NCBI RefSeq assembly: GCF_025151215.1
Contig: NZ_CP102286.1
Span: 3,906,001 to 3,970,000 of the forward strand
Length of the DNA: 64,000 bases
DNA from: Parabacteroides merdae ATCC 43184
GTDB lineage: Bacteria; Bacteroidota; Bacteroidia; Bacteroidales; Tannerellaceae
Reading direction: 5' to 3'
Positions 6,657-58,332 of the stretch are shown here, piece after piece; position 1 is the stretch's first letter; every line of letters begins with the position of its first letter. Under the pieces are notes generated by a model that saw only the letters and a list, made by a program, of their open reading frames with translations, had not been told where the DNA came from and did no database searches. A program made the position numbers and the translations under genes.

Positions 6657-6753
6657 CTCCTTTACTTTTCGCCCTTAGTCGAAAAGGTTTTTGACCCGTG
6701 TCGAAAAGGCTTTTGACCAAGGGCGAAAAGGTTTTCGACTAAAGGCAAAAGGT
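6657..6753. repeat. 22-bp tandem repeat array with inverted ends
   Basis: Three 22-bp units at 6679-6700, 6701-6722 and 6723-6744 share (T/G)CGAAAAGG(T/C)TTT(T/C)GAC. Degenerate partial units flank them (6657-6678 and 6745-6753). Each unit core is quasi-palindromic (GTCGAAAA.TTTTTGAC). The outer parts are perfect inverted complements: CTTTTCGCCC (6665-6674) with GGGCGAAAAG (6721-6730), and TTAGTCGAAAA (6675-6685) with TTTTCGACTAA (6732-6742). It lies in the 617-bp gap between the MFS terminator and rocD; apart from this array, the terminator and the -7 box I see nothing else in that gap. Confidence 0.8.
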
Positions 6754-21469: not shown

Positions 21470-21613
21470 TTTAATCCTTGATATAGTGTTCATGACTTGC
21501 TTAAGGGAATACACACAAGGAGAAATGATATCTTTATGTAAGGGGATAAAGAATGACTTGACTCGATGTTTTGTAGCTTTATTTCCCGAAAGCTTTAAAA
21601 CTATGTTTGTTTT

Positions 21614-21795
21614 GGCAGGTCTTCTGACTTGTTCCGTCTTTGAATGCCTTCCCATCCGGTGACGGACAGTGGCTTGTAGCGTATTCAAAGATTTGGAGAG
21701 GAACTTACAGCAGCGGGTCTGTTCAGGATTCGCACCTGATTCCCTTTTCATCACGCCTCCCGTAGCGGTTGGGAGCCGTGAAACCAAAACTGTGG
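21614..21795 (-). ncRNA. Cobalamin riboswitch (receptor/DUF4374 operon)
   Basis: On the minus strand, in order: AAAGGGAATCAGGTGCGAAT, CAGACCCGCTGCTGT, GCCACTG, GGGAAGGC and the B12 box AGTCAGAAGACCTGCC. All are conserved blocks of the cobalamin riboswitch. It ends about 145 nt upstream of the receptor ATG. Binding of adenosyl- or related cobalamin is expected to lower expression. Confidence 0.93.
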
Positions 21796-21803
21796 CAAAG
21801 GTA
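21796..21803 (-). promoter_or_regulatory. -7 box for riboswitch transcript
   Basis: On the minus strand TACCTTTG fits TAnnTTTG just before the riboswitch begins. Confidence 0.55.
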
Positions 21804-34491: not shown

Positions 34492-34621
34492 TAGAATCTC
34501 ATTCGAATAGGCAATGAAATATCAAGGCTACGCACCAAAATTGTAATTGCCTTAGTTGTTCAACAGGGTGACCGTATCACAATTTTCTAAGGTTGTAATC
34601 TCTATACGGAGTTTTCACAAA

Positions 34622-34722
34622 TCCTCTATCACTCTATCACTACGAAGGTTATGGCTATTAATATTCAAGCGTTAGAGGCAGTGATACAGGACGTTTTCCT
34701 CTATCACTCCTCTATCACTTCT
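34622..34722. repeat. CTCTATCAC repeat cluster
   Basis: Two pairs of direct repeats, CTCTATCACTCTATCAC near 34624-34640 and CTCTATCACTCCTCTATCAC near 34700-34719. The segment between them holds a partial inverted copy (GTTAGAGGCAGTGATA). It lies in the 829-bp gap between the sigma factor and the acyltransferase; I see no gene in the gap. Confidence 0.55.
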
Positions 34723-34913
34723 GACACATGGTGCTTTTATCATATAATTGAAAACCAGTGTGTTGCCTTCTTTTGCTTTTGAAAAAGCATATAAAATAAT
34801 CGAATAAACAAATGTAAAAACGAATATAACAGGTATTAAATTGGCGAAATACGGTTCTTCATTTCACAAAAGCCCTCTCTTTTTTTAGCAGAAACAAGCA
34901 GATAATTCCGTAA

Positions 34914-35005
34914 ACACCCCCATGTTGCCATCCTTAACATCCGGGTGTAGAGAGTCGGTACATCCGGGTGTAAGAGGGGGCAACATGGGGATGTCCGGCA
35001 ACAAA
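34914..35005. repeat. 23-bp tandem repeat array with inverted ends
   Basis: Units at 34937-34959, 34960-34982 and a diverged third at 34983-35005 begin ACATCCGGGTGTA (third: ACATGGGGATGTC). CCCCATGTTGCC just before the array is the exact reverse complement of GGCAACATGGGG at its end (about 34979-34990). Short ORFs crossing it on both strands look spurious. Confidence 0.7.
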
Positions 35006-35170
35006 AGTGCCTTGCCGGACAATAAAAACCACCCGGTTTTACCTATTTTTATAGCCGTTTTTAGAGAAAAAGGCTCTGTTTTTTTGGGGTATATTTCATG
35101 CGATTTCCGGGTGTTGGTGCGGTTGCCCTGGTTGTTCAAACCTGTTTGAGAGGATTTCCGGCTTTTTTCC

Positions 35171-36371: not shown

Positions 36372-36446
36372 AATATATTCGTTTGTTACTTTCGATTTTC
36401 ACTTTGTAAGGGGTAAAAAGATCGTTATCCCTTCATTTATTCTAAA

Positions 36447-36530
36447 ATCAGCGATAGCAATTCTGTAATCAGTGGCAGTGATTATATAATTGCTGTCGCT
36501 GATTTTGTAATTGCTGTCACTGATTACAGA
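36447..36530. repeat. 21-bp tandem repeat array with inverted ends
   Basis: Four contiguous 21-bp units at 36447-36467, 36468-36488, 36489-36509 and 36510-36530. Units 1-2 read ATCAGYG.YAG..AT, and units 3-4 are the opposite orientation (ATTGCTGTCRCTGAT). TTCTGTAATCAGTG near 36461 and CACTGATTACAGAA near 36517 are exact 14-bp reverse complements. It lies between the acyltransferase gene and the riboswitch promoter. Confidence 0.8.
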
Positions 36531-36591: not shown

Positions 36592-36599
36592 TACATTTG
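36592..36599 (+). promoter_or_regulatory. -7 box for riboswitch-carboxylase transcript
   Basis: TACATTTG fits TAnnTTTG, immediately upstream of the riboswitch. Confidence 0.6.
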
Positions 36600-36604
36600 C
36601 CACC

Positions 36605-36813
36605 GAATCGGTTCTGTATTTCCCGTTCGGGAATATGGATTAAAAGGGAATCGGGTGTAAATCCCGGACAGTCCCGCTGCTGTGAAGCTCCGTTTTAACA
36701 TCTTGGAACTACTTTCGCCACTGACTTGTTATAATTAAGTCGGGAAGGCTTCAGGATGGGAGTCAGTCAGAAGACCTGCCGTTCATTATAAGGTTCATAT
36801 CCTCGTGGGTTAG
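36605..36813 (+). ncRNA. Cobalamin riboswitch (biotin-dependent carboxylase operon)
   Basis: The core at 36637-36780 shows AAAAGGGAATCGGGTG, GACAGTCCCGCTGCTGT, GCCACTG, GGGAAGGC and CAGTCAGAAGACCTGCC in the correct order. It is followed by CCTCGTGGGTTAGG, shared with the riboswitch at 45082, probably the expression platform and kissing-loop partner. The carboxylase start lies 8 to 32 nt beyond, so control at the level of translation initiation is plausible. Confidence 0.93.
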
Positions 36814-45068: not shown

Positions 45069-45076
45069 TAATTTTG
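45069..45076 (+). promoter_or_regulatory. -7 box for orphan riboswitch
   Basis: TAATTTTG fits TAnnTTTG, just upstream of the riboswitch. Confidence 0.5.
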
Positions 45077-45081
45077 TCTTC

Positions 45082-45294
45082 GGATCGGTTTCGTATGATT
45101 AAATCAGATGATACGGATTAAAAGGGAATCGGGTGAAAATCCCGGACAGTCCCGCTGCTGTGAAGCTCCGTTTCAACATCCTGAAAACTACTTTTGCCAC
45201 TGGTTTATGGTTATAAACCGGGAAGGCTTCGGGATGGGAGTCAGTCAGAAGACCTGCCGTTCATTAAAGGCTATTCTTTCCTCGTGGGTTAGGA
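45082..45294 (+). ncRNA. Cobalamin riboswitch with no recognisable target gene
   Basis: The core at 45112-45258 has AAAAGGGAATCGGGTG, GACAGTCCCGCTGCTGT, GCCACTG, GGGAAGGC and CAGTCAGAAGACCTGCC, plus the same CCTCGTGGGTTAGG platform as the riboswitch at 36605, to which it is closely similar along its length. The next + strand feature is a 32-codon ORF at 45337 and then a hairpin at 45486; the next real genes run the other way. Confidence 0.9.
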
Positions 45295-52776: not shown

Positions 52777-52818
52777 TTCTAAAATGAACCAATCGAGTTC
52801 TGAAATGAACCAAAATAG
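52777..52818. repeat. Two 21-bp tandem repeat units
   Basis: TTCTAAAATGAACCAATCGAG (52777-52797, one short of the next copy) and 52798-52818 share TTCTRAAATGAACCAA and end in AG. It lies between the divergent atpD gene and the riboswitch promoter at 52945. Otherwise the 579-bp gap holds only the riboswitch and its promoter. Confidence 0.6.
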
Positions 52819-52944: not shown

Positions 52945-52952
52945 TACCTTTG
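52945..52952 (+). promoter_or_regulatory. -7 box for btu riboswitch transcript
   Basis: TACCTTTG fits TAnnTTTG, immediately upstream of the riboswitch. Confidence 0.55.
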
Positions 52953-53216
52953 CAATCGGATTATGGTGTAACCGTATTTGCTTCCGCTGACGGTTAGTAA
53001 AAGGGAATCCGGTGAAAGTCCGGAGCTGTACCCGTAGCTGTAAGTTCTGAAACCCCGGCAAATCTTGTTGCCACTGGTGGTTCAATTGAGAATTGACAAT
53101 TTGAACACCGGGAAGGCTGCCGTTAGTTGGTAATTGTCCATTATCAATTATCAATTGAAAAGGGGGGAACAAGCCAGAAAACCTGCCATTATTCGGTATC
53201 CGGTTCCTCGGGTAAA
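52953..53216 (+). ncRNA. Cobalamin riboswitch (btuB-btuG-btuF)
   Basis: AAAAGGGAATCCGGTGAAAG (52998-53017), CTGTACCCGTAGCTGT, GCCACTG (53070-53076), ACCGGGAAGGC and AGCCAGAAAACCTGCC (53172-53187) occur in order. The peripheral arm between GCCACTG and the B12 box is long and made of AATTGACAA/TTGTCCATTATCAATTA simple repeats. It ends 7 bp before the btuB ATG, so it probably controls translation start. Confidence 0.93.
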
Positions 53217-57501: not shown

Positions 57502-57917
57502 CCGGCAACGAAAGTTTGTGGAGAATAATCTATATGTTTGTTGCATAGTGGATTGTGTAGGTGAAGGATTTTTTTTCATTATCGATGACAGTACGAAGAT
57601 AAGGCCCCGCTACAGGCAGGAATACCGTTTCGGGAAGATCGGCGAAGATCGGTGCAGAAACAGGTAGGAAGAGGTAGGAAATAGATGTCATTATATTTTG
57701 AATATCAGCATTTATTGCTTATCTTTATAGGGCAATGAAACGATGGGGATGAGGAGGAGGAATGAATTCGACGTCAGGCGTTACGGGTAGCAGGTATAGA
57801 TGGCCCTTTACGGTCCGGATTCGATGTCGGCATCAGTTGGATAACGGTTGTCCAGTTGGATGGGGGGCAAACCCGGAGCTGCAGGTGAGGATGATCGTGC
57901 AATATCAAGGTGAGCCT

Positions 57918-58027
57918 TGAAACAAGGGACTTCTGTGTACGAAACAAGGGACTTTGACGTGTCAAACCAAGAAGTTCGGGAGGTAAAAGACCGGACTTCC
58001 GGATGCGAAAGAAGGGATTTTTCTCGT
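57918..58027. repeat. 22-bp tandem repeat array, five units
   Basis: Exactly 22-bp units at 57918-57939, 57940-57961, 57962-57983, 57984-58005 and 58006-58027. The consensus is roughly YGAAACAAGGGACTT followed by a variable 7-bp tail. Units 1, 2 and 5 are closest; 3 and 4 are more diverged but keep length and register. No ORF runs through it. Confidence 0.85.
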
Positions 58028-58332
58028 TCCTGTCGTGTCTTTTTCTATGCCGGTTTAAAAGGGCACAAGGAAATGAGTATATATATATATTATTAATATA
58101 TTTATTCTAAGATGTAGGATTGAAACGCAATGAACGAAAAACCTCTGTAATCTGCTTGCAATGAATGGTTTATATTGAGACATTGACTGCACCGTTTGTT
58201 TGCCTTGGTGAAATCGGAGTGGCGGTAATTGTTAAAACACAGGTACAGTTAAGGTCCATCAGGTATTCGTTTTTTGTAATGAAGTCGTTGATAAAAGAAG
58301 TATGTGTCAGACCATATTCCACGATTAATGAT

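Follow-up and report, generated by a model that had tools for sequence, protein, structure and literature searches.

The array at positions 57918..58027 (+ strand) of the window, i.e. of the whole 64-kb stretch of DNA that was analysed, is a real array of helix-length units. It lies within a small dispersed element that carries a gene of the DUF4248 family, and it is a member of a class of arrays with 21-23-bp units that is frequent in the genus. This genus is probably Parabacteroides, to judge by the name attached to protein P0019 and by locus L182.

The five-unit array and its dispersed element

The array consists of five direct units of 22 bp, the first of which overlaps the position of the DUF4248 stop codon. 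The core AAGGGACTT is present in units 1 and 2, and the pairwise agreement between units ranges from 9 to 16 of 22 positions. At period 22 the five-unit register that scores highest begins at 57911; its score of 0.577 compares with 0.346 +/- 0.020 at the same period in 400 dinucleotide shuffles of the 998-bp gap. None of the 400 shuffles reached the score of the array, the shuffle maximum being 0.475 when any period from 16 to 30 was admitted. The tandem array is real and far above chance, which confirms the five strictly 22-bp units proposed in the first-pass annotation. The absence of CRISPR-like spacers, noted there as well, also holds, i.e. the units abut at 22 bp. The array is not in the list of Tandem Repeats Finder (TRF) at a minimum score of 30. 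The five-unit consensus is not palindromic (p 0.45), and the RNA folding of the array does not exceed that of shuffles on either strand (z 0.18 and 0.83), so that an RNA hairpin was rejected for this array. A known structured RNA was likewise rejected, since Rfam at the gathering score gave no match at the array; the window has four Rfam matches at other positions, all of them cobalamin riboswitches.

The array is not an independent site: it belongs to a repeat element with a DUF4248 gene, here called family D, that spans 57573..58197 (+ strand), is about 625 bp long and occurs at six unrelated places in the genome, as seen by blastn, by alignment and by a two-core pattern of AGGGACTT. When the whole gap was compared with the own genome (4.38 Mb, one contig), five further places matched, near 337, 1166, 2786, 3757 and 4373 kb, and the own-genome matches to paired AGGGACTT cores with spacers of 8-20 bp are exactly the six copies. 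The neighbours of the copies are unrelated to each other where checked; the annotated flanks of three copies are DnaJ and TetR, an alpha/beta hydrolase and ribosomal protein S6, and an aminotransferase and DnaB. At the DNA level a search of 58 other genomes gave no match to the element, and the exact core pattern had no match in the named genomes to which it was applied. A phage or plasmid origin was rejected, as the element has no DNA match in plasmids, the exact array pattern has none in viral contigs, and the DUF4248 alignment confirmed no relative in viral contigs, where candidates were sought by two peptide patterns.

Two of the copies show additional features. Copy L012 is flanked by the inverted ends TTAGAGCCTGTTT (L012:3861 and 4630), which may be IS5-like; such ends are seen around this copy only, and the TTAGAGCCTGTTT end occurs singly elsewhere. 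Copy L013 matches the array into its fifth unit, and there, at the end of the array, an insert of about 600 bp starts. Inside this insert, directly behind the array, there is an open frame of 156 codons (L013:3928-4398) with no significant family match.

The conservation of the element was compared among five copies, L013 being left out. The array has 94.2% identity, no gap cells and five units in each copy. The AT-rich block behind it (58080..58125; identity taken over 58090-58150) has 93.7% identity with 18 gap cells. The values are 84.5% and no gap cells for the leader, 88.8% and 250 gap cells for the DUF4248 region, 87.5% and 88 gap cells for the stretch 3' of the array, and 85.7% and no gap cells for the right end. 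With L013 included the identities become 91.0% for the array, 91.7% for the AT block and 87.1% for the DUF4248 region, and the array then has ten gap cells because the alignment is cut at the insert. In other words, the array and the AT block are the best-conserved parts of the element, and freedom from indels is common to the leader and the right end too. The six copies share ancestry, therefore their conservation is a weak sign of selection.

The same gap was inspected in related genomes. In G002 the genes that flank the window gap are adjacent and separated by about 255 bp that lack the element; this gap contains weak 22-bp repeats of another sequence (score 9.6), and its DNA is too diverged to place the ends of the element. 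In G012 the gap corresponding to copy L010 is about 238 bp long. In the other nine genomes compared, a search of 1.5 kb did not locate the left neighbour gene. No clean empty site was found. Behind the left-hand gene, 5 of 19 relatives' loci (L163, L166, L167, L168 and L171) have an array of 20-24 bp with a score of at least 13 within 1.5 kb.

Arrays behind DUF4248 genes

The DUF4248 (PF14053) gene of the window copy is a remnant at approximately 57747..57921 (+ strand), located by alignment and frames. Its frame is broken early, it lacks about 58 bp that four other copies have, and it is not among the DUF4248 family matches. Copies L009 (337 kb; E 4.3e-24 to PF14053) and L013 (3757 kb; E 2.8e-23) carry intact genes, and the frame is broken in four of the six copies, i.e. 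in the window copy and in three others with stops or a split frame. The start of the array coincides with the DUF4248 stop codon.

The association of core and gene extends beyond the element. Among 34 genomes of the genus, pairs of AGGGACTT with spacers of 8-20 bp occur in the six own copies (period 22) and once in G019, again with period 22 and immediately after a gene from the nearest DUF4248 subfamily. The pairs elsewhere in the genus are two in a single G002 array (period 21), with no DUF4248 match among the hits on its contig and none recognised in the surrounding 3 kb, and one in G028 (period 18). For 9 of 49 DUF4248 genes the 200 bp behind the gene contain the core AGGGACTT or the variant AGGTACTT, and upstream this holds for 0 of 49, the background rate being 0.011 per 200 bp. 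These nine genes are five own element copies, L183 in G011, L184 and L036 in G019, the latter with five 22-bp steps behind the gene, and L022, an own-genome DUF4248 gene of another subfamily with a single core only. The nearest subfamily is not uniform in this respect: L182 (P. faecalis) has a single inverted pair of the core and no 22-bp array at the scores used, L043 (G009) has the variant core only, and L186 (G023) has a different 22-bp array.

Arrays of any sequence show a similar tendency. A score of at least 11 at period 21, 22 or 23 was reached in the 300 bp behind 19 of 49 DUF4248 genes, as against one in shuffles and 5 of 48 upstream; five of the 19 are own element copies, which leaves 14 of 44. 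Within 1 kb of DUF4248, a 21-23-bp array is present at 10 of 20 relatives' loci and at two of five own loci outside the element. The array density near DUF4248 in relatives is 0.232 per kb, compared with 0.02-0.04 in the sampled stretches of three genomes, a comparison uncorrected for longer gaps. Class arrays are also found far from any known DUF4248 gene, and we regard the link between array and DUF4248 as suggestive only.

In the genus, DUF4248 genes occur in cassettes of varying make-up (L028-L031, L142-L159) with an amidase or glucosaminidase, an HU-like protein and a primase-helicase, the last consisting of BT4734-like_N plus a VapE-like or DUF3987 part. At L028 and L030 of the own genome (identified by Pfam) and at L142 and L158 of relatives, a DUF4248 gene and a VapE-like gene converge on a 22-bp array; this arrangement is not seen at the window locus. 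Sequence searches with DUF4248 gave no DNA-binding relative, and a search among solved structures gave three matches, none of them significant (best E 0.46).

The class in the window and across the genus

The first-pass annotation had listed arrays in four other gaps of the window, at 6657, 34914, 36447 and 52777. Three of these are clear by TRF and dyad-symmetric: a 22-bp array at 6666..6753 (TRF 6678-6753, score 82) in a dispersed repeat termed family A, a 23-bp array at 34914..34994 (TRF 34936-34986, score 65) in family B, and a 21-bp array at 36439..36525 (TRF 36479-36526, score 75), to which similar arrays exist in the related genome G013. The fourth, at 52777..52813, is weak; it was seen by autocorrelation, is absent from the TRF list and amounts to only about two 21-bp units. 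The consensus units of the window arrays differ from one another, as had been stated. What the first-pass annotation did not notice is that three of the five window arrays (6666, 34914 and 57918) are within dispersed repeats, and the remaining two lie upstream of cobalamin riboswitches (36592-36797 and 52947-53204). The window has four such riboswitches, the other two being at 21597-21803 and 45069-45275, so that two of the four have a 21-bp array upstream.

We looked at 17 loci of family A and 20 of family B, beside the six of family D. The aligned array of family A is gapless, with dyad centres every 11 columns. Gap cells in the array number 0 in nine family A copies and 0 in twelve family B copies; in the flanks they number 14 and 16 (family A) and 38 and 0 (family B). 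The right part of family B is as conserved as its array (91.8% and 91.1%). Locus L115 of family A has a longer array (117 bp, period 22), therefore units can be gained. A purely repeat-generating process, as considered in the first-pass annotation, is disfavoured by the absence of gaps from the family A and B arrays and from those of the five target copies; yet some neighbouring parts are gapless as well, and the array of L115 is longer. Two further observations concern these families. In the array of L108 (family A), compared with L102-L107, single unit cores appear in inverted orientation while the arms around them are unchanged, a pattern to be expected from template switching at inverted repeats. 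Several copies of the family B repeat of about 500 bp (window 34564-35070, L122-L141) have TATCACT heptads to the left and AGTGATA heptads to the right.

The frequency of the class was estimated from 20 own-genome stretches, each of 20 kb, and from 40 stretches of five genomes of the same genus, pooled with the window; intergenic DNA was defined as lying outside tiled open frames of at least 110 codons, i.e. genes were approximated by long frames. In this sample 90 intergenic arrays passed a fixed score, 41 of them at 21-23 bp (27 at exactly 22), 22 at 14, one at 20 and three at 24. Among the arrays with periods of 17-60 in the sampled stretches of the six genomes, 41 of 56 are at 21-23 bp and 6 of 56 at 42-46. 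Shuffled intergenic DNA gave none at 21-23 bp and a few at other periods, and the coding DNA of the own sample had four at 21-23 bp in 355 kb. The sharp intergenic peak at 21-23 bp that had been predicted is thus seen in the sampled stretches of the genus (41/56, none in shuffles), and it is weaker outside. In other families of the order (20 stretches, eight genomes) 5 of 13 intergenic arrays have this period, the density being 0.13 per kb versus 0.295 in the genus, and E. coli K-12 has no 21-23-bp array in 31 kb of intergenic DNA and one of another period. Among the literature matches listed, no paper names this array class in its title. The arrays at 14 bp form a second intergenic class (22 of the 90; e.g. 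L062:4190-4280 and L089:11885-11930) made of two heptads such as ATAAATC, GTTGAAA and TTGTCAA; of the arrays with periods of 14-16 that were placed in gaps, 23 of 24 lie between co-directional genes.

The consensus unit is palindromic in 22 of the 41 class arrays at p<0.05 and in 9 of 41 at p<0.01, compared with 4 of 15 arrays of other periods (17 to 60), all four at 44-47 bp. The palindromes differ in length and are padded to 21-23 bp. The spacing was followed in one family, TAAnnCTATGnnTTA, with 20-24 bp allowed: in 64 of 65 cases the step from one unit to the next is exactly 22 bp, and in one it is 23 bp. The pattern matched in 4 of 10 genomes searched, and the same pattern read backwards gave six matches in all; the matches are not independent, because some are the two strands of one array. 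Co-variation of the arms is absent, i.e. letters match in 14 of 65 cases versus 17.3 expected, and across the spacer there are 7 letter matches versus 16.4 expected. We read the exact spacing together with the absence of arm co-variation as phasing on double-stranded DNA, and helix-phased protein sites are therefore favoured over RNA hairpins. The same-face docking at two helical turns that had been suggested would fit both these spacings and the peak in the genus, with the qualification that the target array is part of an element.

Possible roles and relation to known systems

We tentatively favour, with less than even confidence, the reading that the target array is a phased cluster of five sites and a working part of the DUF4248 element, most likely a landing strip for a protein. 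A short site (core AAGGGACTT) would then be present five times in direct orientation, at two DNA turns per copy and always on one face of the helix, and an oligomeric DNA-binding protein could assemble side by side on these copies, as repressors and initiators do on operators and iterons. The putative protein would bind the DNA here in its double-stranded form. Candidate binders are DUF4248 itself or a partner from the DUF4248 cassettes (HU, primase-helicase), which would be supplied in trans by the intact copies because the local gene is broken, and the outcome may be the control of the cassette or of its replication. This docking function is what we infer from the DNA sequence.

A serious competitor is the idea that the array is an old minisatellite in a decaying mobile repeat, without present function, that looks conserved as the copies are young. 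It would agree well with the DUF4248 frame being broken in four of six copies, with the element DNA being confined to one of the genomes searched (0 of 58 others), with the unrelated genes that adjoin the copies where checked and with the inverted ends around L012, and the leader and the right end are free of gap cells just as the array is. However, the array is better conserved than the leader, the gene region and the right end, the same core recurs behind DUF4248 in other species, and a genus-wide peak of the period is not expected from carried-along repeats alone. An origin-like role, which we consider rather improbable, would make the array a replication or maintenance site of the cassette of DUF4248, primase-helicase (VapE or DUF3987), HU and amidase, from which the six-copy element would derive by loss of the helicase. 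In some plasmids, origins that bear repeats are sites of action of AEP primase-helicase proteins, and the arrays between convergent DUF4248 and VapE-like genes, as well as those within 1 kb of DUF4248 at half of the relatives' loci and two of five own loci, are consistent with such a role; however, the gene is present without a 21-23-bp array within 1 kb at the other 10 of 20 relatives' loci and 3 of 5 own loci, arrays occur also without such genes, and the searches of viral contigs for DUF4248 and of plasmids for the element gave no support.

It appears very unlikely that the arrays work at the RNA level, be it as transcribed stem-loops, as terminators or as 3' stabilisers. Those at 6666, 34914 and 36439 do fold far better than shuffles (z -4.6, -7.8 and -9.1), and 10 of 38 genus arrays lie in convergent gaps versus 14.8% expected by length; with p 0.06, a preference of the class for such gaps is not claimed. 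The target array, however, neither folds above shuffles nor is palindromic, and the arm letters of TAAnnCTATGnnTTA match no more often than expected. If the landing-strip reading of the target array is extended to the class, the genus would carry an undescribed system of helix-phased intergenic sites with many unrelated families, only a two-turn unit in common and a reader protein for each; some families would have been dispersed by small mobile elements, of which the DUF4248 element is an example. We consider this broader proposal somewhat unlikely. The abundance of the arrays is about 0.3 per intergenic kb, which extrapolates from the samples to roughly 150 in the own genome. If the helix fixes the period, these would be roughly 150 intergenic sites per genome (by the same extrapolation) in common gut bacteria that are bound by yet-unnamed proteins, and each array family could serve as bait to fish out its reader protein. 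The DUF4248 element would offer a testable pair in this sense, consisting of a small uncharacterised protein and the array located behind its gene.

The array resembles several known systems in part. With CRISPR arrays it shares tandem units in an intergenic gap; it differs in that the units abut, and a CRISPR array was ruled out by the lack of unique spacers between the repeats. In iteron origins and phased operators, direct repeats are short, with about 22 bp, and follow one another every two helical turns. The 22-bp direct repeats seen here are alike, and the differences are that the array is chromosomal, the local gene broken and the initiator only putative. Other members of the class recall the small intergenic palindromes of REP/BIME elements with their RAYT transposase, as described in the available part of PMC3733652, but the tandem period here is a regular 22 bp and the target array is not palindromic. 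A RAYT/REP origin was rejected on the absence of PF01797 (Y1 transposase), which had no match in the own genome in a search whose control was positive in 5 of 14 genomes.

Two precedents come from Porphyromonas gingivalis. One is PG_RS02100, likewise a DUF4248 gene and a lone one, whose deletion alters pigment and oxidative stress tolerance; the word "repeat" is absent from the main text of that paper in the version available (PMC6231650). The other is the BrickBuilt MITE, the closest known system (Klein 2015, PMC4596501, cited here from the accessible portion). It is a dispersed intergenic element with several copies per genome and a central head-to-tail array of 23-nt units without spacers, between a unique leader and tail, and according to PMC4596501 it has no BLASTn match outside the species. 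Family D is similar in having multiple (six) intergenic copies with an internal 22-bp tandem array, which is a likeness of description. The unit number of BrickBuilt varies between copies and strains, whereas there are five units in five copies here; BrickBuilt has terminal inverted repeats, and a pair of inverted ends is seen here only around L012; and family D carries a DUF4248 gene, which the accessible portion of PMC4596501 does not mention. Finally, the class described here comprises many unrelated families that have only the period in common.
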